Shown one piece after another: positions 29,581-64,000 of a stretch of 64,000 nt of DNA. The translations under genes and the position numbers were made by a program. Below the pieces are notes generated by a model. It saw only the letters and a program-made list of their open reading frames with translations, was not told the origin of the DNA and did no database searches. Source of the stretch: Zingiber officinale. Its lineage: Eukaryota > Streptophyta > Magnoliopsida > Zingiberales > Zingiberaceae. Position 1 is the stretch's first letter. The number at the start of each line of letters is the position of its first letter. The stretch lies in NCBI RefSeq assembly GCF_018446385.1, contig NC_056005.1, positions 92,284,984 to 92,348,983 of the forward strand, written 5' to 3'.

Positions 29581-29594
29581 CAGCCACGTGGCTG
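29581..29594. promoter_or_regulatory. CAGCCACGTGGCTG palindrome in SufB promoter
   Basis: A perfect 14-bp palindrome centred on the G-box CACGTG, about 120 bp upstream of the SufB start codon. G-boxes are classical light- and stress-response sites in promoters of plastid-protein genes. Motif and position support a cis-element; the binding factor is inferred. Confidence 0.5.
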
Positions 29595-29711
29595 TCTCCA
29601 ACAGACTCCAAGTTATTTCGGTGGCGTCGATCGCCCGCCGTCTCCCTTCCACACGCCTATTTCTTCAATTTCTCCTTCCTTCTCCCAATCCCCTGCTCGA
29701 TCTCCATCTCC

Positions 29712-39097: not shown

Positions 39098-40705
39098 TCA
39101 AAGAATGAAATTCTCATCATCAGGACACTCAAAGAGTTCCATATGGCATGCTAAACAATCCAAAATTGTCAATATCTCATTAAACTGATTGTCTGAACCA
39201 TCTGTTTTAAACTTATAGACCTTGCCCCCAATTTCAATCCAGGCATATGCGGTGCTCGCTCTCAACCCCCTCTCCTTCATCAACTTTCGAACTTTTGCTG
39301 AATGATTCCAATACCCTGCACTTGCATAAAGATTTGCTAACTGAAGATAAGTTGCGGCACATTGTGGTTCTAGCGAAAGCCTATTTTCAGCAGCATGGAT
39401 ACCTATCCAGACATTTCTATGAACCCTACATGATGACAGCAATGAACCCCATATAACAGCATTCGGACGCATAGGCATTTTCTTGATGACATCCAATGCT
39501 TCTTCCAACAACCCTGCACGGCCAAGAAGATCAACAATGCATGAGTAGTGATCTAATTCTGGACTTACCCCATGTTTAAGCATTAGGTCAAAGCAAAGTT
39601 GTCCTTTCTCCATGAGTCCTGCATGCCGACATGAGGAAAGAACGCATAAATAAGAAATAGCATCAGGTGTTGCATTCTGTGCATACATCTGATTCAGCAA
39701 ATCTATGGCTGTATCAGCAAGCCCGTGTTGTGAGAATCCTGAAAGCATGGAGTTCCATGAGATTTGATCTCTGAATTGCATATTCTCAAAGACAAAATGA
39801 GATTCATTGATGCTACCACATTTAGCATACATCGAGATCAATGCATTAGAAACATGAGTATAAGAACCAAAACCCATTTTAAGTTCTAAAGAGTGAACAC
39901 TCCTTCCAAACCCAAGATATGCAGTAGTGGTGCATGAACTCAAGATGCATAGAAATGTGATGTCATTTGGTTCTATCATTGCTTGTCTCATTGAAGAAAA
40001 TAGTTGCAAACATGTCTCGACCTCCTGGTACTGTGCATAACCTGCAATTATAGCAGTCCAAGTTACAATATTTCTGACAGGCATCATTTGAAAAATATAA
40101 TAAGCATCTTGCAACTGCCCAAGCTTGGAATATAGGCTGATCAATGAGCTCCCTGTGGTCAAAGAAATCTCACAACCATTTTTAATTGAGAGAGCATGAA
40201 GCTGGACTCCAGTGCCAAAAGCCCCAGAGGAAGCACAAGAACTAATGATGAAAGAAATGGTGGGAAAATCCAACTCTATCCCTCTATTGTGCAATTTGAA
40301 AAATGACAAAAGAGCATCTTCCTTTATTTTGTTATTTGTTCTAGTATATAACAAGGATTCTTTGTGACGACTCGTTTCAACTATATCTTTGACTTTATAG
40401 AACAAATTAGTTCTTGCACTCTTCTTAACAGATTTGAAGCAATTCTGTTGATCAAAATTGAGAAGATCATGCATGCAACCATTTATCAGTTGATGAAGGC
40501 CTGACTTACCTTGAACATCACTGGTTCTGGGGATAACTGAATCCAAAACTTTCAAAGCCTTGTCAACTCCCTTGTCTTTTACATTTCTATATCTACTAAG
40601 AGATGTAAAGGTGCTGAATTGTTCTAGAAGGTGATGTGCTATGGAAAAGGGTTTTATACAAATGAAAGAACGGTTGGAAGAAATATGCAACAACTGAATC
40701 CACAT
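39098..40705 (-). CDS. Pentatricopeptide repeat protein, PLS class with E domain
   Basis: A 535-residue coding exon. After an N-terminal region of about 150 residues it shows a run of PLS-type pentatricopeptide repeats, visible as GSSLISLYSKLGQLQDAYYIF, VTWTAIIAGYAQ, SNALISMYAKCGSINESHFVF, ISWNSMLSGFSQHG and YSCIVDLLGRAGLLEEALDVI. It then has an E/E+ type tail with TYLQLANLYASAGYW and AYAWIEIGGKVYKF. There is no DYW deaminase domain. Such proteins bind specific RNA sites in mitochondria or plastids and act mostly in C-to-U editing or RNA processing. The chosen start gives MWIQLLHISSNRSF, basic, hydrophobic and nearly free of acids, as in an organelle-targeting peptide. The frame is open a little further upstream (to about 40,771) but has no ATG there. 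A 5' leader intron at about 40,802-41,471 is plausible. It resembles Arabidopsis At2g37320-type proteins, but that identity is from memory. Confidence 0.88.
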   Translation of the reverse strand: MWIQLLHISSNRSFICIKPFSIAHHLLEQFSTFTSLSRYRNVKDKGVDKALKVLDSVIPRTSDVQGKSGLHQLINGCMHDLLNFDQQNCFKSVKKSARTNLFYKVKDIVETSRHKESLLYTRTNNKIKEDALLSFFKLHNRGIELDFPTISFIISSCASSGAFGTGVQLHALSIKNGCEISLTTGSSLISLYSKLGQLQDAYYIFQMMPVRNIVTWTAIIAGYAQYQEVETCLQLFSSMRQAMIEPNDITFLCILSSCTTTAYLGFGRSVHSLELKMGFGSYTHVSNALISMYAKCGSINESHFVFENMQFRDQISWNSMLSGFSQHGLADTAIDLLNQMYAQNATPDAISYLCVLSSCRHAGLMEKGQLCFDLMLKHGVSPELDHYSCIVDLLGRAGLLEEALDVIKKMPMRPNAVIWGSLLSSCRVHRNVWIGIHAAENRLSLEPQCAATYLQLANLYASAGYWNHSAKVRKLMKERGLRASTAYAWIEIGGKVYKFKTDGSDNQFNEILTILDCLACHMELFECPDDENFIL

Positions 40706-42033
40706 AACTAGTATTATCCATGTGATATTCCCTTTCCAAACGCATGTGACCTTTCTGTAACCATGAAGCAACTTTACCAGCTCCAGTTTGCCAATTAACT
40801 TCTGTAGATAAGCAAAATACTTTGGTGAGTAAGAAGAACAACTAGGGTAAATGGGTCAACAAAAAAAGTAGGATTAGTTAGAAAAGGCTAAAACTACTAC
40901 TGACAGTTATTTATTAATTCTTCAAGTCATTGGTGATTGGGCAAACATATGATGAAATTTTGGTAGAGTTATAGCTTGATTTGTGAGAGAGTAATGCCCA
41001 TAAAAACAATCTTCTAAAGAGTTGCAGGAGTGGTCAGAAGCTTCAATAGCAACTAGGATGTTGCATAAAGTGACTAATCTTCTCTGCCTTCAACTAAAGA
41101 TAGTTCTTTTTGGATTGCACATGGAGCTCAAACAGTGAGGAAAACAGCTATCGCAATTATTTATGTATAGAAATCATTTGACTCAAATACTATTAGGAAG
41201 TTTCGATATCTCAGGCTGATTCAGCACAGTGCAACGCTTCAATTGAACTTTCGAGATGGACAAGAAATCAAGAATCAAGTATTATGAGCCACAATCATGA
41301 TCAAAATTTCCTGTCAATCAACATGTCCATGCTCTATGAAACTTCTTCAAATTTGCTACCGAATTTTGAAAGAAGCCATCATATTTTTGCTACGGTCTCA
41401 TTGAGGAATTTCATCAAGCAAGTGATATGCAAATCGACCATGGGTGAATTAGAAGACAAAGAGGAGCATACCTGAGGAAGTAGAGAAGGTAGGCTTCAGA
41501 ACTTCGATCTGAGATCGGTACTTGCGTTGTCATCCACCCTGTTCTCTTCTTCAGCGCCTCAATATCGCAAATAGGGGGAAAAAAAGTCGGGTCGGTTTAG
41601 AGAGAGTCCACCCGAAATACAATTAGGGTTTAAAATTTCCATTCTTCTTCTCCTCGTGGATTAGCACTCCTGTAGACTGGGCCTTGTTGCCTCTTCCGTC
41701 GCCGCCGCCATATCCTCCTCCGACCTCATCCTCCACCTACACCTCGCTCCTGCCGCCGCCTCCATTGCTTCGGTCGACTGGACAAAACTCCACTGTCGGG
41801 TTTCGCGTCTGACGAATTTCAAATTATTCTTTTAATGGCAAATATCTTTACCGGCGATAACTGATAATACAAAATAAAAGGATAAAAATATAATATCCAT
41901 CATTTATATTTTTGTCAGATGCCAATTTAAAATACTTTTATATTATACCATATAAAAATTAACATCCAGCCTTTATAACAGATAATAATTAACAACTAAC
42001 TTTTACTATATATTATCAATTTAATCGACTAGT
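40706..42033. other. PPR 5' leader, promoter and spacer
   Basis: Includes a likely noncoding first exon ending at 41,472 (donor GTATGC) and its promoter near 41,600. Sequence beyond 41,820 is AT-rich. No other gene is recognised. Confidence 0.4.
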
Positions 42034-43897: not shown

Positions 43898-44964
43898 TGT
43901 TGGGACCTTGACGTTCGCTAGAGGGGGTGAATAGCGTCTCACCCAAATCGTCGCTTCCTACGCTTGTTAGTGCACAGCGGAAACAAAAATACTAACAAAC
44001 AAAAGTAAAGCTAACCCTAGAAAATAATAAACAAGTAGCAAACCCAATGACACGTTGTTTAACGTGGTTCGGAGATGAAGCTCCTACTCCACGGCTGTCC
44101 GTAAGGTGGACGATCCCGATCCGTCGGTGGATGACTCCCCGGAAAACCTCCGACTAGCTCATGTAGCTCCTTGTGGGTGGAGAAACCTCGCCACAAACTC
44201 TTACCAAGGACTCTTGAGAAGCTAGGGCACTAGTAGACTACTAATAGGGGTTAACCACCTCTATTTCGTCAACCTTAACCAAGCTTCCAATGCTTGGTTA
44301 TATAGGCCACAAGTTAGAAAACTCTGCCTACCAGTCGACTGCCAAAACATGCAGTCGACTGCCCTTCATGGAAATTCGACCGTTGCAGCCCAACGGCTCG
44401 ATACCAACTCTCTGTTCGCTCACAGTCGACTGCCTCGGTCGACTGCACCAGTCGACTAATGAAACCACCAGTTAACTGCTACAGTACTACTACAGTAACG
44501 CTGCAGTACCGCTACAGTACTGCTACAATAAACCCTAATTCTAGGATTTTACCCCGAGTACATTCGCTCAACACTCGTTCTCGCCCGACCAACCTAGACC
44601 TAGCCTTCTAGCCTCCTTCATCAGCCTTGCGTCCCTCGGATGCCTCCTCATCATTCACGTCTTGCCTTCTAGAGCTTCCATCGGCCTTGTCATTGTTGTC
44701 GGGTCTTCCTTTGTCAAGAGGTCGCACCTCCGGGACTTCATCCATTGCCAAGTCACACTTGGACTTAAGTTGCCAAGACTACATGCTTGAACTTACACCG
44801 CCAAGACTCATCCTTGGACTTTCCTCCTTTGCCAAGATCACACTTGGATTTTGCTTGTTGTACCTATATCCTGCACACTTACAATGCATATCAAATACAA
44901 CAATAATCCTAACTTAAACCTTTGCCCAAACATCAAAACTTAGAGTACCCAGATTGCTCCAACA
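43898..44964 (-). repeat. 3' LTR of element A
   Basis: 1,067 bp with terminal TGTTGG...CCAACA. The TATA box (CCTATATAA, minus) is at 44,298-44,306. Five GTCGAC-centred palindromes lie just upstream of it (44,331-44,458). The left flank GATCC (43,893-43,897) is the expected target-site half; its partner should lie beyond the window. Confidence 0.85.
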
Positions 44965-45075
44965 ATCTCTCCTTTTTTGATATTTGGCAGCCCGTTTAAG
45001 TTAGGGAAACAATATAGCAATAATAATGTAAATAAATATACAATCTACACATGCATAAATCATGGAACCTAATTC

Positions 45076-45250
45076 TAGGCTCCCCTTCACCTAAGCTCCC
45101 CCTTGAGCTAGGATTTCTTGCAAAGATAAACTTCTCCCCCTTTGCTAATAAATGAGCAATCTCTCCCCCTTCACCTAAGCTCCCCCTTGAGTTAGGATTT
45201 CTTACAAAGGTATGTAGGTTTCCCACTTAAACCTAAATTTCTCCCCCTTT
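45076..45250 (-). promoter_or_regulatory. Five extra polypurine-tract-like runs in element A
   Basis: Besides the LTR-adjacent tract, the minus strand carries five runs of the type AAGGGGGAG at about 45,096, 45,131, 45,161, 45,179 and 45,238. Polypurine tracts prime plus-strand DNA synthesis in LTR elements, and SIRE-like Copia elements are known for repeated tracts near the 3' LTR. Function here is inferred. Confidence 0.55.
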
Positions 45251-45407
45251 GCCATACATCAAAAAGAGCTCCAACAATATCTCAATTATTGGACTCTTTG
45301 ACCTCTAATTACCATAAACATCATGTATTAATCCCCCATAAGATTACATACATGTTCACCACTCTTTTGGTCATTTTCTAATGCTGAAAAAAAAATTTCA
45401 GACCGTA

Positions 45408-45603
45408 TCAGTCGACTGCTATAAGTACCAGTCGACTGACATCATCAAAACGATCTTACAGAGACATTCTGTGCTCATGAATAGTGCTACCAGACGACTG
45501 GTAAAACCATCAGTCGACTGGCCTCGTCAAAATGAGCTTACAGAGGTCCTCTGTGCTGAAAATTACTGTTATCAGTCGACTGGTAACTGTACCAGTCGAC
45601 TGG
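45408..45603. repeat. Second GTCGAC palindrome cluster, inside element A
   Basis: Five CAGTCGACTG-type palindromes and one variant lie within 196 bp. They are embedded in a roughly 120-bp tandem duplication that also repeats CTTACAGAG and TCTGTGCT. The motif is the same as in the LTR cluster of this element. Confidence 0.75.
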
Positions 45604-48600
45604 TACTCTTTTTGGGCAAAAATTAACCTTTTTTTACCCACTTTCAGAAATATGTCAAAAATTCCACAGACCTCCAAAAAATCTCAAATTTTGTGTAGAG
45701 GTCTATTTTATCCATGTATACTTGGGAAAAATATATATAAAAATATATTTATCACAGATTCCAAGATTGACACAAAATTCAAAACTAGCTAAATGGTTCA
45801 ATTGAACCTTAATCTAAAGTCCTAGTTTTGGCTTCCTCTTGATGTATCTGCCCATACTAAACCATAATGCATTCCTAGCATTAGTTTATATGACATCTAT
45901 ACATCAAAAACTAATTTTCATGAAATATGAACTCAATTCACATTTCAATGCATGAAATACATCTCAATTGTGTCAACCCACTCTGTTAGAGACTTAAGTC
46001 CGTCTCCTAACCACTTGGTACATTTGATAACCCATCTACCATGGGTCCCAAAGGCTCTTCCTAACCTTAGGAATCTTAACCTTAGTCGCCTCCCTTGGTG
46101 ACTCATCCACTATGGCTAGGCCACTTTGGTGCACCTCGGGTGACACTTGGCCTACAAAACTCACCTCCTTAACCTTAGACACATTGTCTTTGGTTAATTT
46201 CTTCTCGTCCTTAACCTTGGACATCCCATCCTTGCCATAATTATATGTCACCCTAGCATATTCCTTCTTATTGGCCTTGGATGACTCTCCCTTGTCCTTG
46301 GCCACACCTCCCTTACCAATGTCATGTGCTACCTTAGCACTTGACCTCCTTTTGGTCTTGGAGGGACCTAATTTGATATTTTTGGATCTTTGACCACTCA
46401 AATACATGTCAAGTCCTTTAGGTCCAATAATGAACCTCTCTAGGACTTTCTTCATTTCCTCAAGCTTTGTCTTCAAGGCTTGATTTTCCAATTCTAGGGT
46501 TCTAACCCTAGAATCAACATGTCCATTATGGACATTCCTAGACCTACCCTTCCTAAGCATTGTAAAAAATCATGATCATCCATCTAGGATGTCACTTGAT
46601 ATGATCCCTCTTGTTGGGACACTTCCATACATAATAAATGTCTTTGTCCTTAATTACAAGGAAATTGACATATTGCATGATGATTAATGGCATACATCAA
46701 AATAAGCAAAGCATGTTATAGCTACATGATGTATGCATGACATGACATGACATTTTTATATTTTTCATAATAAAATGTGAATGCTAAATATGATGTCATG
46801 GCATATGATGGGCAAATAATCATGGCAAGTTAGCATAAATAAAATGTGCCTAGATAATCTATTTAAGTATCCTTAATTCTTAGCTACACCTTAAAATTAA
46901 ATCCTAGATTGCCCAATTTCATTGAGAAAGTGCCAAACCCAATTTTGACATTTCTTTTTCCCTTTCTAAATTTGTGTTATTTTTAAATTAAACAAATTCC
47001 TCAAAGTATGACACATTTTATTCTTTCAAAGAGTATATGAAATCAAATTAAGACTTAGATTCGCCTTTAACCTTCTAAGAAAATGTCAAAACCCCCAACT
47101 TGGCATTTCTTATCCTTTTCCAAATGTGTCAATTTAAATTAAGTTCAAAACCTCAAAGTTTGACACATTTTACTCTTCTAAAGAGTAAACGTCTTACATT
47201 AGGACCTAAATTAATTTTCCTTTAATTACCCTAAGAGAATACCAAACCCCCAATTTAGTATTTCTTATATTTTTCCACATTGTGCCAATTTAATTCAAAC
47301 ATAATTCTTTAAGATTTGGCACATGTTACTCTTTCCAAGAATGACAATTTGGATTAAGATTTACATTTCCCTTAATTCCATAAGAAAATGTCAAATTCCA
47401 AATTTGGCATTACTTTTGCTTCTCTCTAGTGTGTCAATTTAAATTAGATTTAACTCCTCAAATTTTGACACATTTTTGCTCTTCAAGGCTTTAAACACAT
47501 TTGATTAAAGCATGGGTTTTCTCTTAATTCCTTAAGAAAGTATCAAAATTTTAACTTGATTTTTCTTATACTTTTCTTAAGTGTGCCAAGTTAGATTAAG
47601 TTCAACTCTTCAAATTTTGGCACATATATTACTCTCTCAAAGAGTAACCCAATAACCTTTTTCATTTTCAAAGGTTAACAATAACCTTGAAAATGCTCTC
47701 AAGTGTCAACTTTACAAAGGTTGGGTTAACTACCTTTCCAATTGGAGTTGACACTCTCTAACCCCATCTAAGGTGTAGAGAATATGCTCCTAGGAACCCA
47801 ATACCTATTGGTGCTCCTTGGATGTTCTAGGTCACTTCTAGGAATAACTTCCCTTGTAACCTTCTTTGTGACTTTATTAGACTTCTTAGAAGTCTTAGTC
47901 ACATTAGTCTTGTCAAAAGTACTCTTAGGGATTCCTTCCCTAGTATCTTTGACTTGACCTCTACACCTAGGGTTGGCCCCATAGTTATATGGAACCCTAT
48001 GAAAGGAAGTCACATCCTCCTTGGCTTTAGGTTTGTATCCCAAACCCCTATCGTCATTGGATGGCTCTTGTCTAGCTTTTCCTAGGTTATGCTCATTTTG
48101 ACCCCTAAGCATGTTTTCCATTCTTGCTAAGGTCCTTTCTAAATTATCAAGTCTTGTCCTCAAGACTTGATTTTCACTCCATAAATTCCTAGATTTTGGG
48201 TTTTCATTGAATCCTTGAGCATTTCTATTTTTAGGCATATATCTAAAATCCTTGGTGTTATTGTCTAAGTTGTTATTTACCTTCCTAACCTTAGGTGTGA
48301 CAAATCTAGCATGAGGATGAATATATTTATCCTTAAGGTTATCATGCCTCCTATTCTCATGATAAATAGCATTAAGATGATAAGAGTTATTTCTAGCATG
48401 CTTTTTATCATGTGTCAACGGAATGGATTCATTAAATGATACCTTGGTTTTTACCTTGGAAGCTTCCTTCTTCTCCCACTTCTTCAAATGCGCCAATTTC
48501 ATGAGCTCTCCTCTCCTTGGGCACTTTGTGTGGTAGTGACCCCACTCACCACATGTAAAGCACCTAATGTGCTTCTTCTCCTTCTTCTTCTTCCTACAAC

Positions 48601-49413
48601 TCACATTAGTTTCTAAATTAACTTTAGTGAGTTTAGGGTTACCTGCTTTACCTTCTTTAGCGAAGGACACCTACTCTTGTAGTGCCCTATCTTACCACAC
48701 TCAAAACATTTGATGCGGTCCTTTGTATTCTTCTTGGTAGTTGAGGTGGAGGGTTGAGCTTCCAAGATCTCCTCTTCCTCGGATTTCTCTTCTTCCTCTT
48801 CACTTGAAGATGTGGATGATTCCACTTCTTCCTCCCTTGAAGATGTGGATGATACCTCCTCTTCCACCTCTTCCTTCTCTTTCTCTTCCTCCTCTTCCTT
48901 TTCCTCCTCGAATGTTGACCTCTTGTCAACATCGGATTGATCCTTCTCTTCTTGGACCAATGAGCCCTTCTCCTTGGGCTCTTCCACTCCTTGGATTTTT
49001 GTAGGGTCTTCATGATAGGCAATGATCTTTTTCCAAAGATCACTTGCATTTGTGGTTTCACCTACTCTCAACAAAATATTAGAAGGTAGTAAATTGTGCA
49101 AAATTGTCGTTACCTCCTTGTATGCCTCCGATTGCTCTCGTTGCTCTTCAGTCCAATGCCGAGGTCGGAGGCGTTTACTCTTCTTGTCCGTAGGAGCTTC
49201 AAATGGGTCACTCAAGACAACCCATTGGTTCCAATCCATTTGGAACCATGTCTCCAACCGCTTCCTCCAATAATTGAAGTCTTCTTTGTCGTACGGAGGT
49301 GGAATTCGGATATCCCATCCAAGCGGTCCTTCGGACTCCATCTTCTTCTTCCTCTAGCTTCTTGCTCTCTTAGCGGTTAGTCCGTAGAAGAGCGACCTCG
49401 CTCTGATACCACT

Positions 49414-49574
49414 TGTTGGGACCTTGACGTTCGCTAGAGGGGGGGTGAATAGCGTCTCACCCAAATCGTCGCTTCCTACGCTTGTTAGTGCACAGCGGAA
49501 ACAAAAATACTAACAAACAAAAGCAAAGCTAACTCTAGAAAACAATAAACAAGAAGTAAACCCAATGATACGTT
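49414..49574 (-). repeat. 5' LTR of element A (visible part)
   Basis: Matches the first 160 or so bases of the left LTR at about 95%, then gives way to the B array. The rest is expected beyond the window. Confidence 0.85.
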
Positions 49575-49936
49575 TGTTGGTGCAGCGGAGACCGGCAAGA
49601 GGGGGGGTGAATTGCTGAAAACAAAAACAAACTATACCCTCCTCGGATTTCAACTCAGAATTTAAATCAGCAACTAAATTAGTGAAACAGAAAAAGAAAC
49701 CCGAATGGAAAAGACTCAGAGATTTAACCTGGTTACAACCAAGGAGGTTGTTAATCCAGGACAGTAGAAAAGCGTAGTAAGAAAAATCTCCTTCTCTGAA
49801 GGCGGAGAAGCCTTTTACACTTTTGAAGCTCACTAGTTGCTTAGGAATTGCTAACAGATTGATTGCTTGAGTTGTTTTCTAATTCCTAGCTCCAGGGGCC
49901 TTTAAATAGCCTCTGGAAATTCTATCCCGAGGGTCC

Positions 49937-50118
49937 AAGGCGCCTCCAACAAGGTTCAAGGCGCCTCCACAGCTCGGTCAGCGGATAGAACTCTATCCGA
50001 ACGTAAACGGTCATTTTGACCTGTTGAAGGCGCCTCCAATCAGGCTGAAGGCGCCTCCAGCCTGGTTGAAGGCGCCTTCAAGCTGGAGGCACCTCCAGTC
50101 AGTTGGAGGCGCCTCCAA
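49937..50118. repeat. GGCGCC palindrome cluster, LTR of B unit 1
   Basis: Six GGCGCC cores plus one near-match in about 180 bp, in the settings AAGGCGCCTCCA, GAAGGCGCCTTC and TGGAGGCGCCTCCA. On the minus strand it lies 30-220 bp upstream of the TATA box. Confidence 0.85.
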
Positions 50119-50395
50119 GCTGGCAGCTCAGCTCCTTTGAGTTCGTTTCCAGCTTGTTGCGACTTCCGATGCTCCGATCTTTTGGGTGATTGTGGCCAAC
50201 CGAAGTTTCCGGCCTTCCTCGAGTAGCCTTCCGTCCCGGTTTAACGTCCCTTGAACGTCGCGCACGCTCTTCACGCCCACCGGAGTACTCTTCCGCAGCT
50301 TTCTCGTCCTTCGGACGCACCGAGCCCGTCGGCTCCCTTCCCGTGCCGTCCTTCTCGCTAGCTGCGTCTTCCGCTCGACTTCCTGTGTTCCTAAG

Positions 50396-50842
50396 TGTTG
50401 ACGAGTGGCTCATATTTGGATGAAGGGATGTCATGGAAGAAAAATCTGTTAAGATTTTTCGTAATAAAATTTTGTTAAGATTTTATATAACAGAATTTTG
50501 TTATGTTTTTCATAACATATTCTGTTACGTTTTTACCGGGTCTGGGGGTTTAGCAGTATTTATAGGGATCATTGTAAACCCATTGTAGATAAGACAACAC
50601 AAGAATCATTAGATGTGATTCTCTTGTGTAGAAGAGAATTCTAATAAAGCTTCGGCCGTTTTGTGGAGTAGGCAAGTCGCCGAACCACGGTAACTCGTTT
50701 TCTTTCTCTTCTTCTTCTCCTTCCTGGTGTTTGCTCTCTTTTGTGCGTCTTTGTCTTGTTGTTCCGCGCGATCTCTTTTCTCTCTTCCTCTTCTTCCGCG
50801 GTTCAGAAAGGTTGAGAGGTATTGCCCTCTCTTTGCACAACA
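50396..50842 (+). repeat. 5' LTR of the young Copia element
   Basis: 447 bp, TGTTGACGAG...TTGCACAACA, followed after two bases by the methionine-tRNA primer site. Confidence 0.93.
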
Positions 50843-53800
50843 ATTGGTATCAGAGCTCCAGGTTTTTGGCAGATTTCTTCAACATGTCGGGGATGACTTC
50901 TGCGAAGTTTGATATGGTGAAATTTGACGGAACCGGAAACTTTGGATTATGGCAGAGAAGGGTCAAGGACTTGTTGGTGCAACAAGGCATGGTGAAGGCG
51001 CTAGGAGAAAGAAAACCGGAAAGCATGGAGAAATCAGATTGGGAAGAACATCAGGCGAAGGCAGTAGCAACAATCAGGCTTTGTCTTACGGATGACGTGA
51101 TGTACCATGTCATGGACGAGGAGTCACCGGTGACAGTTTGGCAAAAGCTGGAAAGCCGGTACATGTCAAAATCATTGACAAACAAGTTGTATCTCAAGCA
51201 GAAATTATTCGGGCTGAAGATGACAGAAGGAACCGATCTGAGTCAGCACATCAACGTATTCAACCAGATTGTAAGTGATCTGAAGCGGATTGATGTGAAG
51301 ATCGAAGACGAAGACAAGGCGCTGATGTTGTTGAATTCTCTACCTTCATCTCCTACGTACGAGAATTTGGTTACTACTTTGATGTGGGGTAAGGAAACTC
51401 TCAAATTGGAGGAGATCACAAGTGCGTTGCTGAAGCGATGAAATTTCTCAAGGAGAAGGACTTGTGGTAAATAGCAACCAAGAGCGTGGTAGGAGCAAAT
51501 CTTGACATAGATATGACAACAACAACAAGACTCGTTCTAAGTCGAGAAGGAAGAAGGTGATCATGTGCTACAAATGTGGAGGTAAAGGCCATATCAAGAG
51601 AAATTGTCCAGAGATAAAGAAATATGTTGCAGAGAACAAAAGTAGTTCGGCAAAGTCTGCAAACATAGTTGAAGAAGAAAATTCAGAAAGCGGTGATGGA
51701 GATATGCTATCAGTTATGTCAAGTTCGGAGCAGCTGACGGATGCATGGATTTTAGACTCTGCATGTTCATATCACATGACTCCAAACAAGGATTGGTGTG
51801 ACACCTATAGGGTAGTGGATTCTGGTTCAGTGTTGATGGGAAACGATGCATCATGCAAGGTTATCGGCATAGGGAATGTCAGAATCAAGATGTTTGATGG
51901 TGTGATCAGAACCCTATGTGATGTCAGATATATACTAGAGCTAAAGAAGAACTTGATCTCCCTAAGCACACTAGATGGTATTAGTTGTAGTGACAAATCA
52001 ATGAGCGGGGTGATAAAAGTCAGCAAGGAAGCTCTGACGGTGATGAAAGGATAAAAGTTAACAGGGAACATCTATAAGTTAATAGGAACTACAGTTGTAG
52101 GTGGAGTCACATCGGTGGAGTCTGAATTAGACAGTACTATCTTGTAGCATATGTAGCTAGGGCATATAGGTGAATGTAAGATGCTAGAACTTTACAAGAG
52201 AGATTTGTTGAAAGGTGTCAAGATGTGCAAACTTGAATTCTACAAATTCTATGTTCTTGGGACACAAAGCATGCAAAGTGCAATTTAAGACGACAACAAA
52301 CAAGACGGAGGGGATTCTGGACTACGTACATACGGATCTCTGGGGACCGGCCAGTGTAGCATCACGTGGAGGGCACTTGTATTTTGTGAGTTTTACTGAT
52401 GATTTCTCATGAAAGGTATGGGTATACTTTATGCGTCACAAGTCAGAAACTTTTACAAAGTTTAAATTGTGGAAAACTGAAGTAGAGAACCAGACCGGAA
52501 GGAAGATCAAATGCCTTAGGTCAGATAATGGGACTGAGTACACAAATTCAAAGTTTCAAGAATTCTGTGAGCAGCATGGGATAATGAGGCACTTCTCGGT
52601 TCGCAGGACACCTCAGCAGAATGGGGTAGCGGAAAGGTTGAACAGGACAATCATTGAGAAGGCAAGATGTCTCAGGCTGAATGCAGGGCTTGCAAAGAAT
52701 TTCTGGGCGGAAGCAGTTAACATGGCATGTTATCTCATTAATAGATCACCAAAGGCAGCACTAGAAGGCAAAGTATCAGAGGAAGTATGGACAGGAAAAC
52801 AAGTAGAATACTCTCATCTTCGAGTTTTTGGATGTCCAGCCTATATGCACATATCTAGTGAGGAAAGATCAAAGCTGGATGCAAAGTCAAAGCAATGCAT
52901 TTTTCTGGGCTATCAGAAAGGAGTTAAAGGCTTCAAGCTTTGGGATCCTAAGGCAAACAAGGTGGTGATCAGCAGAGATGTGGTGTTTGACGAGAAAGTT
53001 ATGTTACAACGTACTCATGAAGAAGGAAAGGAAACACCACAAAGCAACAAAGAGAAAGATATTGTGCAGGTGGAGCTAGAGACTCATGACTTCGATGATT
53101 CTAGCTCAGAGCACATGGAGCATCGCACTATAGCTAGTGGTAGAACGAGACGAGTCGTAAAACCACCCACTAGATACGGATTCGAAGACTTGGTATCTTA
53201 TGCACTTACCACTAGTAGCGGAGACCCTACATCTTTTCAGGAGGCAATACATAGCTCTGAGAAGGACAGGTGGACGGGTGCTATGGCAAAGGAGATGGAG
53301 TCGTTGCATAAGAACCAAACGTGGGATCTAGTGGAACTTCCTGAAGGAGAGAAAGCTATAGGGTGCAAGTGGATATTCAAGAAGAAAGAAGCAATGTCAG
53401 AGGGAGAAGAAGTGAAGTTTAAGGCTCGGTTGGTAGCAAAGGGGTATTCACAAAGAAAGGGGATTGACTATGAAGAAATTTTCTCTCCAGTGGTAAGACA
53501 TACGTCAATTAGAGCGGTATTGGCTTTGGTGGCACATCACGATTTGTATTTGGAGCAAATGGATGTGAAGACGGCATTTCTTCATGGAAATTTGGAGGAG
53601 CAGATTTTTATGTCACAACCTGAGGGATTTAGTCAGTCCGGACAAGAGCAGTTGGTTTGTAAGTTGAAGAAATCGCTCTATGGACTGAAACAATCTCCTA
53701 GGCAATGGTACAAACGTTTTGATTCATATATGATTCAAAACGGATATAGGAGATGCGAGTATGACTGCTGCATATATGTGAAGGGCCTTGAAGATGAATC

Positions 53801-54873
53801 ACTGATTTTCTTACTACTATACGTAGATGACATGCTCATTGTTGCGAAGAAGATGAGAGAGGTTGACAAATTGAAGAGGCTACTGAGCAAGGAATTTGAC
53901 ATGAAAGATTTGGGAGAGGCCAAGAAGATTCTTGGGATGGAGATTCACAGGAATAGAGTTGCAGAGAGATTATGGTTGTCTCAACGTAGCTATGTGGAGA
54001 AGGTGTTGGATAGGTTCAACATGAAGAATGCAAAGTCGGTGAGCACACCCCTGGCGCATCACTTCAAGTTATCCAGTACACAGTGTCCAAAGACGGATGA
54101 CGAGATCCAAGAGATGTCAAAGGTTCCTTATGCCAGTGCAGTTGGTTGTCTGATGTATGCCATGGTTTGCACGAGACCAGATTTGGCGCAAGCAGTTAGT
54201 ATGGTAAGCAAGTTTCTCTCAAATCCTGGTCAACCACATTGGGATGCAGTGAAATGAATTTTCAGATACTTGAGAAATACAACTAATTATGACATCATGT
54301 TCAGTAGACAACCGGAAGATCCTTTAGTTGCTGGGTACGTAGATGCAGACTATGCAGGATAACAGGAGGTCTACTACAGGATACGTATTCACTGTGGCAG
54401 GAGGACCTATTTGTTGGAAATCTATGATATAATCTATTGTTGCATTGTCTACTACGGAATCCGAGTACATGGCAGCAGCTGAAGCAGCGAAGGAAGCTTT
54501 ATGGCTTACAGGGTTGGTCAGAGAACTGGGTGTTCAGCAAGGTGGAGTCAAGTTGTTATGCGATAGTCAGAGTGCTATTTATTTGGCGAAGAATCAGGTG
54601 TATCATGCGAGAACCAAACACATTGATGTGAGGTTTCACAAGATCAGAGAGTTGATTGCTTCCGGGGAAATTCAACTTGAGAAGGTTCACACTGCAGACA
54701 ATACTGCAGATATGCTGACAAAGCCAGTGACCACAGAGAAGTTTAAGCATTGCTTGAACTTGATCCATATCTCTAGATGCTAGAGAAAGGAAGCCCAGAC
54801 CCAGAGATCCAGATGGAGTTTTGTCCAGATATTCGTATTCTTTGAAGGGGTGAATATTCTCCAAGGTGGAGAT

Positions 54874-55320
54874 TGTTGACGAGTGGCTCATATTTGGATG
54901 AAGGGATGTCATGGAAGAAAAATCAGTTAAGATTTTTCGTAATAAAATTCTGTTAAGATTTTATATAACAGAATTTTGTTATGTTTTTCATAACATATTC
55001 TGTTACGTTTTTACCGGGTCTGGGGGTTTAGCAGTATTTATAGGGATCATTGTAAACCCATTGTAAATAAGACAACACAAGAATCATTAGATGTGATTCT
55101 CTTGTGTAGAAGAGAATTCTAATAAAGCTTCGGCCGTTTTGTGGAGTAGGCAAGTCGCCGAACCACGGTAACTCTTTTTCTTTCTCTTCTTCTTCTCCTT
55201 CCTGGTGTTTGCTCTCTTTTGTGCGTCTTTGTCTTGTTGTTCCGCGCGATCTCTTTTCTCTCTTCCTCTTCTTCCGCGGTTCAGAAAGGTTGAGAGGTAT
55301 TGCCCTCTCTTTGCACAACA
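54874..55320 (+). repeat. 3' LTR of the young Copia element
   Basis: 447 bp, the same length and ends as the 5' LTR and about 99% alike, preceded by the polypurine tract. Confidence 0.93.
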
Positions 55321-55411
55321 CTAAGCTCCTGCACACTCAGACACAGGGATCAAACACAGCAGGACCTAACTAACTTGGTTGATCACATCAAAACTACCAC
55401 GGGGTCCAACA

Positions 55412-57661
55412 ATCTCCCCCTTTTTGATGTGCATCAACCCAAGTTCAAGTTAGGGTTAAACTAGACATAAAAAGTAATTTTAAAGAAAAATTACTAAACT
55501 AACAAGTTATGCATAATTTTTGCAATTAGTAAAATTGCAACACTTTTTATAAAAATAATAACAGAAATGTTAAATTTTTTTTTTAACTCCCCCTAAACTT
55601 GTACTTTTCTCTCCCCCTTTGATCACAGCAAAAATGGGGTTAAGAAAATACGAAACAAATAAGTTAAGTGAAATGCATAGAATTTTTTTTTAAAAAAAAA
55701 ATCTAAGATGAAAAAAAATTCTAAGTTATTTTAAAAAAATAATCTTCTAAGTTAAATTTTTGAATTTTCTGAAAAAAAATTTCTAGGGAAAAAAAAAATT
55801 TCTCAGTCAAATTGAATTTTTCTACAAAAAAAATTTTAAGTCAAATTTTTGAATTTCCAGAAAAAAATTTCTAAGTCAATAAAAATTTCCAAGTCAATAA
55901 ATATTTTTTTTTTAATTTTCACAATCTGACATTTTAGAATTTTTAAAAAGATTTAAAAACTTTTAAAACATTATTTGATTCTAGTTTAATGCTTTTTCAA
56001 AAACGTTAATTAAACATTTTCTTCCAATATTTTAGCTTCCAGGTCGTGGCGAGGCACTAGGCCTTCTTGTTTATTGGAGCAACAACCACTTCCTTAGACA
56101 AAGCTTCCGTAAAGAATTTCAATGTGTAATTCTCTCACTATAAGCTTTTAATTTTTGAAAAATTAATTAAGCATTGATTTTGGAACACAATAGAGGTTTC
56201 TTCCTACAGGATTATTCAAAAATCTAAGGGGTACATAGTTTCTTGGTATTTTTCTAAGTTGACCTTGATGTTTCCTCATATACCAATTTAATTTACCATA
56301 AGTCCTAATTTTTGACTTTGGAAATTTCTTTAAGTATGCATCATTTTTCAATTTCTAATTTTAAATTTTCATTTTCTGATTTTAGATGATCATACATTTC
56401 TAACGGGCATGCTCTTGCTAAGTTCAATTTTAGTTCAGCATTCTCTTTTTCTAATTGATCTAACTCTTTAGAAAGAGATTTGATAAATTTGAAAGATTGA
56501 GTTGGGGTTAGATTGCGTACCTTACTTACCTGGTCTGGTGACGCTCCCCCTTTTCTTCTGATGTTCCTCCCCCTTCATCGATGCTCATCTCTGAGCTGGA
56601 CGTTTCTTCTATCTGATGGTTGGCCATCAGTGCTAGTCCCGAGAATTCTTCGACTTCCGATTCGGAGGATGACGAATCTGACCAAGTAGCCTTCAGATTC
56701 TTGTGCTTGGAGGGTTCTGGTTTCTTGTATTTTGGCTTTGCCTTTTCTTTCTCCTGTCTCTTTAGCTTTGGACAGTCATCTTTGATGTGTCCCTCTTCGT
56801 TGCAGTTGTAGCAGCGAACCGTCCTCTTCTTTCGATCATGCCTCTGCGATTTAAATTTATTAGTACTAAAAAATTTATTGAAGCGTTTTACCAGTAGTGC
56901 CGCTTCTGATTCGTCGACTGAGGCTTCAGAGTCAGAACTGTTTATTTTTGCCTTTAGGGCAATGTTCTGACTTGTCTTCTTTGCTTCGTTGGGTTCTAAA
57001 ACTCGAGATTCGTGAAGTTCAAAAGTAGAAAATAATTGTTCTAAAGTACTTACCTCGAGATCCTTAGAGATGTAATACGCATCTACTAAGGAAGCCCACT
57101 CTGGAGTTCTAGGGAAGGCGTTGAGCGCGTACCGGATGGAGTCCCGGTTGGTTACCTCTTCTCCAAGGTTCGTTAGTTGCATTATTAGCTCCTTGATTCT
57201 CGCTTGGAGTTACGCTACCTTCTCGCCTTGGTTCATCCGGAGGTTCGTTAACTGGTTCCGGAGGATGTCGCGCTTCGCTAGCTTTGCTTCGGAAGTACCT
57301 TCGTGTAGTTCCAAGAATTTTTCCCAGAGATCTTTCGCTGAGACGTAGCTTCCGATCCGATTTACTTCTTGTGGTGGCAGCACGCTAAGCAGGTGGAACT
57401 CCGCCTTTCCGTTGGCGACGAAATCGGCTTGCTCCTTCTTGCTCCATGTGTTTTCTTCTTTGTCTTTCGGCGCTGCAAAACCATATTTCATTGTAATAAG
57501 AATATCAAAATCCGTTTTGAAAAATACCTCCATTTTGCGCTTCCAGGTGGCGAAGTCTCCGTCAAACTTCGGAGGATGGATGTTTGCTCCGGCCATCGTC
57601 TTGATCGTAGTGCTTCAGTTGGCGGTTAGTCCTTCTGAGGCGATCAGGCTCTGATACCACT
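55412..57661 (-). mobile_element. Internal region of B unit 1 (gag only)
   Basis: In minus reading: primer site (57,648-57,659), gag from 57,596 (MAGANIHPPKFDGDF, KRKMEVFFKTDFDIL), CCHC knuckle CYNCNEEGHIKDDC near 56,790, a coiled-coil tail near 56,400, and a C-terminal end with NYVPLRFLNNPVGRN near 56,190. Then comes an A/T homopolymer tract (55,550-55,930) and the polypurine tract at 55,412-55,425, with two more tract-like runs at about 55,588 and 55,611. A fossil with a few breaks. Confidence 0.8.
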
Positions 57662-58568
57662 TGTTGGTGCAGCGAAGACCGGCAAGAGGGGGGGTGAATT
57701 GCTGAAAACAAAAACAAACTATACCCTCCTCGGATTTCAACTCAGAATTTAAATCAGCAACTAAATTAGTGAAACAGAAAAAGAAACCCGAATGGAAAAG
57801 ACTCAGAGATTTAACCTGGTTACAACCAAGGAGGTTGTTAATCCAGGACAGTAGAAAAGCGTAGTAAGAAAAATCTCCTTCTCTGAAGGCGGAGAAGCCT
57901 TTTACACTTTTGAAGCTCACTAGTTGCTTAGGAATTGCTAACAGATTGATTGCTTGAGTTGTTTTCTAATTCCTAGCTCCAGGGGCCTTTAAATAGCCTC
58001 TGGAAATTCTATCCCGAGGGTCCAAGGCGCCTCCAACAAGGTTCAAGGCGCCTCCACAGCTCGGTCAGCGGATAGAACTCTATCCGAACGTAAACAGTCA
58101 TTTTGACCTGTTGAAGGCGCCTCCAATCAGGCTGAAGGCGCCTCCAGCCTGGCTGAAGGCGCCTTCAACCTGGAGGCGCCTCCAGTCAGTTGGAGGCGCC
58201 TCCAAGCTGGCAGCTCAGCTCCTTTGAGTTCGTTTATAGCTTGTTGCGACTTCCGATGCTCCGATATTTTGGGTGATTGTGGCCAACCGAAGTTTCCGGC
58301 CTTCCTCGAGCAGCCTTCCGTCCCGGCTTAACGTCCCTCGAACGTCGCGTACGCTCTTCACGCCCACCGGAGTACTCTTCCGCAGCTTTCTCGTCCTTCG
58401 GACGCACCGAGCCCGTCGGCTCCCTTCCCGTGCCGTCCTTCTCGCTAGCTGCGTCTTCCGCTCGACTTCCTGTGTTCCTAAGCTCCTGCACACTCAGACA
58501 CAGGGATCAAACACAGCAGGACCTAACTAACTTGGTTGATCACATCAAAACTACCACAGGATCCAACA
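57662..58568 (-). repeat. LTR of B unit 2
   Basis: 907 bp, TGTTGG...CCAACA. The TATA box is near 57,987-57,996. Confidence 0.9.
58023..58204. repeat. GGCGCC palindrome cluster, LTR of B unit 2
   Basis: Seven GGCGCC cores in about 180 bp upstream (minus) of the TATA box. The spacing differs from units 1 and 3 in its last third. Confidence 0.85.
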
Positions 58569-60825
58569 ATCTCCCCCTTTTTGATGTGCATCAACCCAAG
58601 TTCAAGTTAGGGTTAAACTAGACATAAAAAGTAATTTTAAAGAAAAATTACTAAACTAACAAGTTATGCATAATTTTTGTAATTAGTAAAATTGCAACAC
58701 TTTTTATAAAAATAATAACAGAAATGTTAATTTTTTTTTTTTAACTCCCCCTAAACTTGTACTTTTCTCTCCCCCTTTGATCACAGCAAAAATGGGGTTA
58801 AGAAAATATGAAACAAATAAGTTAAGTGAAATGCATAGAATTTTTTTTTAAAAAAAAATCTAAGATGAAAAAAAATTCTAAGTTATTTTAAAAAAAATAA
58901 TCTTCTAAGTTAAATTTTTGAATTTTTTGAAAAAAATTTTCTAGGGAAAAAAAAATTTCTCAGTCAAATTGAATTTTTCTACAAAAAAAATTTTAAGTCA
59001 AATTTTTGAATTTCCAGAAAATAATTTCTAAGTCAATAAAAATTTCCAAGTCAATAAATATTTTTTTTTAAATTTTCACAATCTGACATTTTAGAATTTT
59101 TAAAAAGATTTAAAAACTTTTAAAACATTATTTGATTCTAGTTTAATGCTTTTTCAAAAACGTTAATTAAACATTTTCTTCCAATATTTTAGCTTCCAGG
59201 TCGTGGCGAGGCACTAGGCCTTCTTGTTTATTGGAGCAACAACCACTTCCTTAGACAAAGCTTCCGTAAAGAATTTCAATGTGTAATTCTCTCACTATAA
59301 GCTTTTAATTTTTGAAAAATTAATTAAGCACTGATTTTGGAACCCAATAGAGGTTCCTTCCTACAGGATTATTCAAAAATCTAAGGGGTACATAGTTTCT
59401 TGGTATTTTTCTAAGTTGACCTTGATGTTTCCTCATATACCAATTTAATTTACCATAAGTCCTAATTTTTTACTTTGGAAATTTCTTTAAGTATGCATCA
59501 TTTTTCAATTTTTCAATTTCTAATTTTAAATTTTCATTTTCTGATTTTAGATGATCATACATTTCTAACGGGCATGCTCTTGCTAAGTTCAATTTTAGTT
59601 CAGCATTCTCTTTTTCTAATTGATCTAACTCTTTAGAAAGAGATTTGATAAATTTGAAAGATTGAGTTGGGGTTAGATTGCGTACCTTACTTACCTGGTC
59701 TGGTGACGCTCCCCCTTTTCTTCTGATGTTCCTCCCCTTCATCGATGCTCATCTCTGAGCTGGACGTTTCTTCTATCTGATGGTTGGCCATCAGTGCTAG
59801 TCCCGAGAATTCTTCGACTTCCGATTCGGATGATGACGAATCTGACCAAGTAGCCTTCAGATTCTTGTGCTTGGAGGGTTCTGGTTTCTTGTATTTTGGC
59901 TTTGCCTTTTCTTTCTCCTGCCCCTTTAGCTTTGGACAGTCATCTTTGTTGTGTCCCTCTTCGTTGCAGTTGTAGCAGCGAACCGTCCTCTTCTTTCGAT
60001 CATGCCTCTGCGATTTAAATTTATTAATACTAAAAAATTTATTGAAGCGTTTTACCAGTAGTGCCGCTTCTGATTCGTCGACTGAGGCTTCAGAGTCAGA
60101 ACTGTTTATTTTTGCCTTTAGGGCAATGTTCTGACTTGTCTTCTTTGCTTCGTTGGGTTCTGAAACTCGAGATTCGTGAAGTTCAAAAGTAGAAAATAAT
60201 TGTTCTAAAGTACTTACCTCGAGATCCTTAGAGATGTAATACGCATCTACTAAGGAAGCCCACTCTGGAGTTCTAGGGAAGGCGTTGAGCGCGTACCGGA
60301 TGGAGTCCCGGTTGGTTACCTCTTCTCCAAGGTTCGTTAGTTGCATTATTAGCTCCTTGATTCTCGCTTGGAGTTGCGCTACCTTCTCGCCTTGGTTCAT
60401 CCGGAGGTTCGTTAACTGGTTCCGGAGGATGTCGCGCTTCGCTAGCTTTGCTTCGGAAGTACCTTCGTGTAGTTCCAGGAATTTTTCCCAGAGATCTTTC
60501 GCTGAGACGTAGCTTACGATCCGATTTACTTCTTGTGGTGGCAGCACGCTAAGCAGGTGGAACTCCGCCTTTCCGTTGGCGACGAAATCGGCTTGCTCCT
60601 TCTTGCTCCATGTGTTTTCTTCTTTGTCTTTCGGCGCTGCAAAATCATATTTCATTGTAATAAGAATATCAAAATCCGTTTTGAAAAATACCTCCATTTT
60701 GCGCTTCCAGGTGGCGAAGTCTCCGTCAAACTTCGGAGGATGGATGTTTGCTCCGACCATCGTCTTGATCGTAGTGCTTCAGTTGGCGGTTAGTCCTTCT
60801 GAGGCGATCAGGCTCTGATACCACT
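58569..60825 (-). mobile_element. Internal region of B unit 2 (gag only)
   Basis: Same layout as unit 1: primer site at 60,812-60,823, gag from 60,760 (the longest continuous frame of the three, to 59,687, with CYNCNEEGHNKDDC), then the SPDQVSKVRNLTPT segment and coiled coil to about 59,330, an A/T tract at 58,730-59,070, and polypurine tract beside the LTR. A fossil with a break or two. Confidence 0.8.
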
Positions 60826-61733
60826 TGTTGGTGCAGCGGAGACCGGCAAGAGGGGGGGTGAATTGCTGAAAACAAAAACAAACTATACCCTTCTCGGATT
60901 TCAACTCAGAATTTAAATCAACAACTAAATTAGTGAAACAGAAAAAGAAACCCGAATGGAAAAGACTCAGAGATTTAACCTGGTTACAACCAAGGAGGTT
61001 GTTAATCCAGGACAGTAGAAAAGCGTAGTAAGAAAAATCTCCTTCTCTGAAGGCGGAGAAGCCTTTTACACTTTTGAAGCTCACTAGTTGCTTAGGAATT
61101 GCTAACAGATTGATTGCTTGAGTTGTTTTCTAATTCCTAGCTCCAGGGGCCTTTAAATAGCCTCTGGAAATTCTATCCCGAGGGTCCAAGGCGCCTCCAA
61201 TAAGGTTCAAGGCGCCTCCACAGCTCGGTCAGCGGATAGAACTCTATCCGAACGTAAATGGTCATTTTGACCTGTTGAAGGCGCCTCCAATCAGGCTGAA
61301 GGCGCCTCCAGCCTGGCTGAAGGCGCCTTCAACCTGGTTGAAGGCGCCTTCAAGTTGGAGGCGCCTCCAAGCTGGCAGCTCAGCTCCTTTGAGTTCGTTT
61401 CGAGCTTGTTGCGACTTTCGATGCTCCGATCTTTTGGGTGATTGTGGCCAACCGAAGTTTCCGGCCTTCCTCGAGCAGCCTTCCGTCCCGGCTTAACGTC
61501 CCTCGAACGTCGCGCACGCTCTTCACGCCCACCGGAGTACTCTTCCGCAGCTTTCTCGTCCTTCGGACGCACCGAGCCCGTCGGCTCCCTTCCCGTGCCG
61601 TCCTTCTCGCTAGCTGCGTCTTCCGCTCGACTTCCTGTGTTCCTAAGCTCCTGCACACTCAGACACATGGATCAAACACAGCAGGACCTAACTAACTTGG
61701 TTGATCACATCAAAACTATCACGGGGTCCAACA
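60826..61733 (-). repeat. LTR of B unit 3
   Basis: 908 bp, TGTTGG...CCAACA. The TATA box is near 61,151-61,160. Confidence 0.9.
61186..61370. repeat. GGCGCC palindrome cluster, LTR of B unit 3
   Basis: Seven GGCGCC cores in about 185 bp. This copy has a doubled GAAGGCGCCTTCAA step where unit 2 has TGGAGGCGCC, so the cluster varies between units while the rest of the LTR does not. Confidence 0.85.
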
Positions 61734-64000
61734 ATCTCTCCCTTTTTGATGTGCATCAACCCAAGTTCAAGTTAGGGTTAAACTAGACATAAAAAGTAAT
61801 TTTAAAGAAAAATTACTAAACTAACAAGTTATGCATAATTTTTGCAATTAGTAAAATTGCAACACTTTTTATAAAAATAATAACAGAAATGTTAAATTTT
61901 TTTTTTTAACTCCCCCTAAACTTGTACTTTTCTCTCCCCCTTTGATCACAGCAAAAATGGGGTTAAGAAAATATGAAACAAATAAGTTAAGTGAAATGCA
62001 TAGAATTTTTTTTTAAAAAAAATCTAAGATGAAAAAAAATTCTAAGTTATTTTAAAAAAAATAATCTTCTAAGTTAAATTTTTGAATTTTCTGAAAAAAA
62101 ATTTCTAGGGAAAAAAAAAATTTCTCAGTCAAATTGAATTTTTCTACAAAAAAAATTTTAAGTCAAATTTTTGAATTTCTAGAAAAAAATTTCTAAGTCA
62201 ATAAAAATTTCCAAGTCAATAAATATTTTTTTTTTTAATTTTCACAATCTGACATTTTAGAATTTTTAAAAAAATTTAAAAACTTTTAAAGCATTATTTG
62301 ATTCTAGTTTAATGCTTTTTCAAAAACGTTAATTAAACATTTTCTTCCAATATTTTAGCTTCCAGGTCGTGGCGAGGCACTAGGCCTTCTTGGTTATTAG
62401 AGCAACAACCACTTCCTAAGACAAAGCTTCCGTAAAGAATTTCAATGTTTAATTCTCTCACTATAAGCTTTTAATTTTTGAAAAATTAATTAAGCACTGA
62501 TTTTGGAACCCAATAGAGGTTCCTTCCTACAGGATTATTCAAAAATCTAAGGGGTACATAGTTTCTTGGTATTTTTCTAAGTTGACCTTGATGTTTCCTT
62601 ATATACCAATTTAATTTACCATAAGTCCTAATTTTTGACTTTGGAAATTTCTTTAAGTATGCATCATTTTTCAATTTTTCAATTTCTAATTTTAAATTTT
62701 CATTTTCTGATTTTAGATGATCATACATTTCTAACGGGCATGCTCTTGCTAAGTTCAATTTTAGTTCAGCATTCTCTTTTTCTAATTGATCTAACTCTTT
62801 AGAAAGAGATTTGATAAATTTGAAAAATTGAGTTGGGGTTAGATTGCGTACCTTACTTACCTGGTCTGGTGACTCTCCCTCTTCACTGCTGCTTTCTTCT
62901 TCTGATGTTCCTCCCCCTTCATCGATGCTCATCTCTGAGCTGGACGTTTCTTCTATCTGATGGTTGGCCATCAGTGCTAGTCCCGAGAATTCTTCGACTT
63001 CCGATTCGGAGGATGACGAATCTAACCAAGTAGCCTTCAGATTCTTGTGCTTGGAGGGTTCTGGTTTCTTGTATTTTGGCTTTGCCTTTTCTTTCTCCTG
63101 TCTCTTTAGCTTTGGACAGTCATCTTTGATGTGTCCCTCTTCGTTGCAGTTGTAGCAGCGAACCGTCCTCTTTTTTCGATCATGCCTCTGCGATTTAAAT
63201 TTATTAGTACTAAAAAATTTATTGAAGCGCTTTACCAGTAGTGCCGCTTCTGATTCGTCGACTGAGGCTTCAGAGTCAGAACTGTTTATTTTTGCCTTTA
63301 GGGCAATGTTCTGACTTGTCTTCTTTGCTTCGTTGGGTTCTGAAACTCGAGATTCGTGAAGTTCAAAAGTAGAAAATAATTGTTCTAAAGTACTTACCTC
63401 GAGATCCTTAGAGATGTAATACGCATCTACTAAGGAAGCCCACTCTGGAGTTCTAGGGAAGGCGTTGAGCGCGTACCGGATGGAGTCCCGGTTGGTTACC
63501 TCTTCTCCAAGGTTCGTTAGTTACATTATTAGCTCCTTGATTCTCGCTTGGAGTTGCGCTACCTTCTCGCCTTGGTTCATCCGGAGGTTCGTTAACTGGT
63601 TCCGGAGGATGTCGCACTTCGCTAGCTTTGCTTCGGAAGTACCTTCGTGTAGTTCCAGGAATTTTTCCCAGAGATCTTTCGCTGAGACGTAGCTTCCGAT
63701 CCGATTTACTTCTTGTGGTGGCAGCACGCTAAGCAGGTGGAACTCCGCCTTTCCGTTGGCGACGAAATCGGCTTGCTCCTTCTTGCTCCATGTGTTTTCT
63801 TCTTTGTCTTTCGGCGCTGCAAAATCATATTTCATTGTAATAAGAATATCAAAATCCGTTTTGAAAAATACCTCCATTTTGCGCTTCCAGGTGGCGAAGT
63901 CTCCGTCAAACTTCGGAGGATGGATGTTTGCTCCGGCCATCGTCTTGATCGTAGTGCTTCAGTTGGCGGTTAGTCCTTCTGAGGCGATTAGGCTCTGATA
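61734..64000 (-). mobile_element. Internal region of B unit 3 (gag only, runs to window end)
   Basis: Gag from 63,940. The tail at 62,971-62,486 shows an acidic Ser/Glu stretch, SPDQVSKVRNLTPT, a coiled coil (QLEKENAELKLNLARA) and the terminal GRNLYWVPKS. An A/T tract lies at 61,890-62,250. The window stops within the primer-site complement (GGCTCTGATA), so another LTR should follow at once. Confidence 0.8.

Follow-up and report, generated by a model that had tools for sequence, protein, structure and literature searches.

The window analysed here is a stretch of 64,000 nucleotides (C20:92284984-92348983 of a 3.09-Gb genome), and feature coordinates are given in its plus-strand numbering. Frames that resemble host genes lie at 29556-31244 on the plus strand (SufBD core) and, on the minus strand, at 37037-37921 (signal peptide peptidase) and 39098-40771 (PPR protein with an E motif). 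The PPR frame and the primer-site motif of the array element suggest that the DNA comes from a plant. From 49575 to 64934 there extends an array of LTR elements in the order LTR1-internal-LTR2-internal-LTR3-internal-LTR4, with no other DNA between its units. The array and the two elements associated with it are listed in Table 1.

Table 1. Positions of the array, of the element that houses it and of the element nested in it
Feature	Position	Strand	Remarks
Host LTR element, older; the array sits in its second LTR	43898..64000 (within the window)	-	TSD GATCC
Left TSD copy (ACGTT, 5 bp) of the array	49570..49574	.	Right copy at 64935-64939, just past the window, in L009
LTR1, first piece, 821 bp	49575..50395	-	
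Nested Copia element, 4,925 bp, in LTR1	50396..55320	+	447-bp LTRs (4 differences), TSD CTAAG
LTR1, remaining piece; its first bases are the second TSD copy of the nested element	55321..55411	-	
Internal region 1; longest element-strand open frame 218 aa	55412..57661	-	
LTR2, 907 bp	57662..58568	-	
Internal region 2	58569..60825	-	
gag open frame, 357 aa, Retrotran_gag_2 and CCHC knuckle	59687..60760	-	Within internal region 2
LTR3, 908 bp	60826..61733	-	
Internal region 3; longest element-strand open frame 161 aa	61734..64000	-	True end 64005, past the window
LTR4	64006-64934	-	Beyond the window, read from the genome

Layout of the array and identity of its element

An earlier note, made from the letters of the window, had described head-to-tail units that share their LTRs with no DNA between them. 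This description was borne out, as BLAST self-comparison of the window revealed the head-to-tail repeat, the two complete units measure 3,164 and 3,180 bp, and the three internal-to-LTR junctions are identical, each consisting of the end of the primer site, two bases and TGTTGG (the LTR termini in the array being TGTTGG...CCAACA). Unique DNA between units, which was looked for as a refutation, was present at none of the junctions. The succession of LTR-gag units also held as to its order, but unit 1 is split by the 4,925-bp element in LTR1, and the orientation and coding strand of the array element are minus. In internal region 2, we take the end at 58569 to be PPT-like, and the end near 60823 is presumably a primer-site-like motif.

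In the genome sequence past the window, LTR4 begins at 64006, and its end, at 64934, is the end of the array. A fourth LTR had been expected exactly where the window stops; it does exist, but it starts at the sixth base beyond. No further unit was found in the ~39 kb of genome sequence fetched beyond the array, which comprises exactly three units, four LTRs and three internal regions, with an LTR at both extremities. Because the sequence beyond the window stops at three units, the array is not long, contrary to what had been thought possible. It is a shared-LTR tandem, in that LTRs and internal regions alternate within a single 5-bp TSD.

The 357-aa frame of internal region 2 matched Retrotran_gag_2 (1.1e-16) and zf-CCHC, and the gag profile, PF14223, is described as the gag-polypeptide of LTR copia-type elements. 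No pol was found in internal region 2, the one region on which the absence of pol was tested in full: its remainder, 1.1 kb, holds 19-36 stops per frame in the six frames, and none of its five open pieces of at least 40 aa matched pol (one had coiled-coil matches below the cut-off). One frame each of internal regions 1 and 3 likewise gave no pol match. The gag match and the lack of pol agree with the gag-only element that had been proposed. Since 4 of 21 other internal regions of the family retain a frame of at least 481 codons, against longest element-strand frames of 218, 357 and 161 aa in internal regions 1, 2 and 3, the gag frames of the array appear to be broken.

A full single element (LTR-internal-LTR) is ~4.07 kb long and contains gag. 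Judged by its sequence, the element is non-autonomous, gag-only and Copia-type, a TR-GAG by the definition in the available text of PMC6022998. Its length and gag place it outside the TRIM class, for which the same text sets a length of <2,000 bp and the absence of coding domains. A search for Cassandra-type 5S in the LTR returned 0 Rfam matches at the gathering score between 57600 and 61800.

The family is abundant, with one internal pattern occurring at 997 places genome-wide at no more than one mismatch. We fetched 16 other loci (L013-L028) at 10 kb. The structure LTR-internal-LTR was present in 14 of them, the exceptions being L025, in which no second LTR matched, and L028, which is partial. 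None of the 16 contains a shared-LTR tandem within its respective 10 kb, and diverged fragments (65-77%) lie near L026 and L027. A perfect 5-bp TSD was present at 11 of the 13 loci checked for ends, the ends of L019 and L022 not being resolved. In three loci, the relatives of the LTRs are not those of the internal region. The internal regions of L021 and L025 are 0.016-0.020 from a young group from which their LTRs are 0.07-0.10 away, and the internal region of L024 pairs with that of L023 (0.020) while its LTRs sit with the young group (0.024-0.032). This mismatch of kinship suggests template switching between sub-families. Within the window, 22262-22532 is ~80% identical to 61458-61727, in and beside LTR3, and is probably an old LTR remnant.

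A single insertion into an older element, itself split by a younger one

One 5-bp TSD, ACGTT, is present on both flanks of the entire array. The host element has its first LTR at 43898-44964 and its second at 49414-49574, resuming at 64940-65845 past the window, and the first LTR represents the empty site, with one ACGTT at the corresponding point. When the two array flanks were joined, the resulting 1,067 bp aligned end to end with this first LTR at 92.6% identity (1,080 columns, with 54 mismatches and 26 gap positions). The single TSD and the empty site in the partner LTR demonstrate that the array is one insertion and not a set of merged neighbours.

The TSD matches on both sides and the empty site is intact, and we therefore rejected the hypothesis that LTR recombination joined two or three neighbouring but independent insertions and removed the DNA between them. 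Complex elements have classically been explained by such fusion, according to the available part of PMC1950507, yet it predicts no matching TSD, whereas ACGTT flanks the array; in addition, the host LTR runs uninterrupted from end to end across the site, and the internal regions of the array are one another's closest relatives in the set (see below). For this locus we regard it as scarcely credible.

The host element (43898-49413 in the window) has 1,067-bp LTRs with the same type of ends as the array element. Its three frames of at least 150 aa gave only a zinc knuckle above the cut-off and no pol match, so that this element, too, could be non-autonomous and of gag type. The nested Copia element has frames that match gag, a zinc knuckle, Pol_BBD, SH3 and RVT_2, with an integrase core slightly below the cut-off, and it is confined to LTR1 among the four LTRs of the array.

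The three layers differ in the divergence of their LTRs, with 54/1054 differences in the host element, 16/818 between LTR1 and LTR4 of the array and 4/447 in the nested element. By these counts, the order of age, oldest first, is host element, array, nested Copia element. At the grass substitution rate of 1.3e-8, which may not be that of this host, the three would be ~2, ~0.8 and ~0.35 million years old, respectively.

Kinship of the units and timing of their gain

The K2P distances among the internal regions of the array are 0.0099 (1-2), 0.0121 (1-3) and 0.0143 (2-3), with the nearest of 14 other internal regions at 0.0144; the LTRs of the array are 0.0148-0.0202 apart. In the IQ-TREE analysis, internal regions 1-3 formed one clade (SH-aLRT 93.4, UFBoot 97) in which 1 and 2 were sisters (90.1/90), and LTR1 and LTR2 were likewise sisters (88.6/97). 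The earlier note had offered two origins, unequal recombination between LTRs or joining before integration, and had proposed a tree as the test between them. The tree of internal regions gave the pattern that it had linked to local exchange (UFBoot 97, and 90 for 1 plus 2), but the LTR tree did not separate the four array LTRs from those of L019. Because neighbouring internal regions are closest relatives, local unequal exchange is favoured, and joining before integration keeps some likelihood, mainly for the first junction.

The shared changes give a more specific view of the kinship. Internal regions 1 and 2 have in common four substitutions and a 13-bp deletion, all absent from internal region 3 and from 14/14 other internal regions. 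Genome-wide, the deletion has 5 occurrences, of which the array accounts for 2, and the three outside copies do not have the four substitutions; the variant at position 659 occurs at 17 places, 2 in the array. No other place in the genome combines the 13-bp deletion with the 659 variant. Two further substitutions mark all three internal regions of the array and none of the 20 other internal regions aligned. Their exact patterns were found genome-wide at 2 and 3 other places, with no overlap, the second pattern having missed internal region 1, which bears a private change inside it. A single site unites internal regions 2 and 3 (plus L018 and L021) against internal region 1. The base at internal position 529, found in all three array internal regions, was not used, the other 20 being gapped there in the alignment, and we dropped the notion of single marks private to the array, as each occurs elsewhere and just the combinations were not found elsewhere.

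Among the LTRs, LTR1, LTR2 and LTR3 carry a 20-bp deletion that LTR4 does not have; it occurs at 5 places genome-wide, 3 of them in the array. LTR1 and LTR4 differ at 16/818 sites, in this deletion, which also recurs elsewhere, and in a minisatellite. We found no substitution unique to all four array LTRs, and two substitutions are common to them and both LTRs of L019. In two TSD-flanked single copies, L015 and L032, just one LTR of each pair has the 20-bp deletion, which, by this comparison of sequences, is recurrent or spread by conversion. The minisatellite (~21 bp, palindromic core GGCGCC) lies at 58112-58205 and 61276-61375 in the window, and its length varies even between the paired LTRs of one insertion. 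LTR3 resembles LTR4, with a one-base difference, at the minisatellite (LTR position 508-527), and LTR1 at position 629. A breakpoint in LTR3 read from this marker would agree with chromatid exchange, but the marker mutates too often to be relied on.

As reconstructed from these trees and changes, the units nest as ((unit 1, unit 2), unit 3), with LTR4 outside, though gene conversion between units could also copy shared changes from one to another.

Could the three units be a product of the assembly, with one or two real units duplicated or misjoined? Near-identical repeats are prone to such errors. The units, however, are 1.0-1.4% apart in the internal region and have 6, 10 and 13 private internal singletons as well as private indels; the nested insert is present in one LTR only, and the ends of the array fit a single TSD. 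Given the internal divergence, the private indels and the insert confined to LTR1, an artefact appears highly unlikely.

We then compared the splits between units with the insertion itself, scaling internal distances by an LTR:internal divergence ratio of 1.53 (ratio of means, 36 pairs among nine young loci). The scaled distance between internal regions 1 and 2 is 0.015, against 0.020 between LTR1 and LTR4, which dates the insertion. The second step, that is, the separation of units 1 and 2, was therefore probably younger than the insertion, a gap that is not significant by itself at ~20 differences per count. The scaled distances 1-3 and 2-3 are 0.019-0.022, against the same 0.020. Of the 15 changes counted along the lineage of internal region 3 (13 private, 2 shared), 2 are older than the split (95% interval 2-40%), so the first split and the insertion appear indistinguishable in age, and a dimer formed before integration may account for the first step.

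In one alternative, then, template switching or recombination linked two packaged RNAs or cDNAs into an array, or at least a dimer, that inserted in one step, the third unit perhaps being added by a later exchange. Such joining accords with the single TSD around the entire array and with the split between internal region 3 and regions 1/2, which equals the insertion age within error, just 2 of the 15 changes in the internal region 3 lineage being older than the split; template switching has also been published for complex insertions with TSDs (PMC1950507, in its available part). On the other hand, both outer LTRs would derive from one reverse transcription, and the deletion shared by LTR1-3 and absent from LTR4 would need a second event or conversion. 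The resemblance of LTR3 to LTR4 at 508-527 and to LTR1 at 629 is the order expected of chromatid exchange and not of two cDNAs joined end to end, with the reservation that the minisatellite is hypermutable. A trimer formed in advance would, moreover, leave the changes common to internal regions 1 and 2 unexplained unless two of its three templates came from one sub-lineage, and the pairing of the 659 variant with the 13-bp deletion was seen at no other place. On balance, we consider joining before integration a possible but rather unlikely origin.

The family has another three-unit array at C2:125712926-125723042 (L034/L033/L035), with the structure LTR-internal-LTR-internal-LTR-internal-LTR and the TSD GAGAG. 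It was found through a same-strand pair ~3.0 kb apart, the sole such pair among the 100 places, out of 997, that were listed. This array is more diverged in type, its internal regions being 89-91% identical to internal region 2. They form a clade (98.9/100) with an inner pair at merely 71.9/73 (SH-aLRT/UFBoot) and are 0.0101-0.0189 apart (0.0155 for 1 to 3 and 0.0189 for 1 to 2). LTR distances are 0.0011 for LTR3-LTR4, 0.040 for LTR1-LTR2 and 0.026 for LTR1-LTR4. Because LTR3 and LTR4 are nearly alike while the internal regions differ by 1-2%, there may have been a recent exchange or conversion at one end. The scaled splits of internal region 1 in the C2 array are 0.024-0.029, against 0.026 between the outer LTRs, in which the C2 array also accords with joining before integration; its oldest split would thus be of about the insertion age, and a second split is suggested at UFBoot 73. 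Since both arrays, at unrelated sites, have an oldest split near the insertion age and a younger second split, one could envision a two-stage process in the family, in which a dimer arises at insertion or very shortly afterwards, or perhaps before integration, and more units are gained later by LTR-LTR exchange. We hold this to be a minority possibility.

Probable stepwise unequal exchange and comparison with known tandems

The reading that we prefer, with a probability of about 0.7, is that the array grew after a single insertion, through two unequal LTR exchanges that yielded three units and four LTRs. A gag-only Copia element of ~4.07 kb would have inserted once, on the minus strand, in an LTR of the older element, generating the ACGTT duplication; because the element is without pol, mobilisation would have been in trans, by an autonomous partner. 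LTRs of the array could then mispair between sister chromatids or homologues, and a first unequal exchange would produce LTR-internal-LTR-internal-LTR. A second unequal exchange, involving the left-hand unit, would have generated the present three units and four LTRs. The 20-bp deletion fits this course if it arose in LTR1, whose right-hand portion was then copied into the new LTRs of the middle. The 4.9-kb Copia element would have entered LTR1 later. An unequal LTR exchange copies the right-hand part of the LTR together with the adjacent internal region; it thus predicts ((1,2),3) in both, with LTR4 outside, as is seen. We infer both that crossing-over between LTRs was the mode of exchange and that the first step took place after integration.

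How does the array relate to what has been described in plants? In its available text, PMC11899658 reports from rice LTR elements in tandem that share LTRs and have a 5-bp TSD, and tandems also in Arabidopsis, almond and cotton. Gypsy elements make up 82% of its 28 curated rice tandems, and the two rice loci that it details have two units each. The earlier note had taken chains of this kind to be uncommon; according to the available portions of PMC11899658 and PMC4717578, shared-LTR tandems are frequent in plants. The present array resembles the tandems of PMC11899658 in its alternating LTRs and internal regions, shared LTRs and 5-bp TSD and in being read as a single insertion. It differs from them in belonging to a gag-only Copia family, in having three units, and in that shared derived changes order these units. 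TR-GAG elements (PMC6022998) are, like the array element, LTR elements with gag as the sole domain, and tandems lie outside their definition as given in the available text. Among the titles and abstract openings listed from the openly licensed literature, we found no description of gag-only elements in shared-LTR tandems and no published count of them.

Many plants are known to have TRIMs in tandem and arrays of Cassandra (PMC4717578 and PMC7215508, available text), and for maize Wukong unequal crossing-over has been suggested (PMC4528315, likewise). These arrays are similarly non-autonomous, with the order LTR-internal-LTR-internal-LTR. In contrast to the array, TRIMs are short and without gag, and Cassandra LTRs contain 5S, whereas no Rfam family was matched at 57600-61800 in the array. 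Template switching before integration has been proposed for complex insertions in Triticeae (PMC1950507, available part), which, like the array, have a shared LTR and a 5-bp TSD around the whole complex. Those insertions are fusions of two elements with highly similar outer LTRs, whereas LTR4 here is without the 20-bp deletion of LTR1-3.

The plant survey of 2025 (PMC11899658), in the text available, regarded insertion as a tandem and recombination as both possible and stated that the origin was unresolved. This question is testable from one assembly, and a family of about a thousand places offers more arrays. The array itself is nothing unusual for a plant chromosome rich in repeats, and its kind is already known in plants. 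Its contribution is to record the order in which units were gained, as shared derived changes make units 1 and 2 sisters that were probably separated after insertion.
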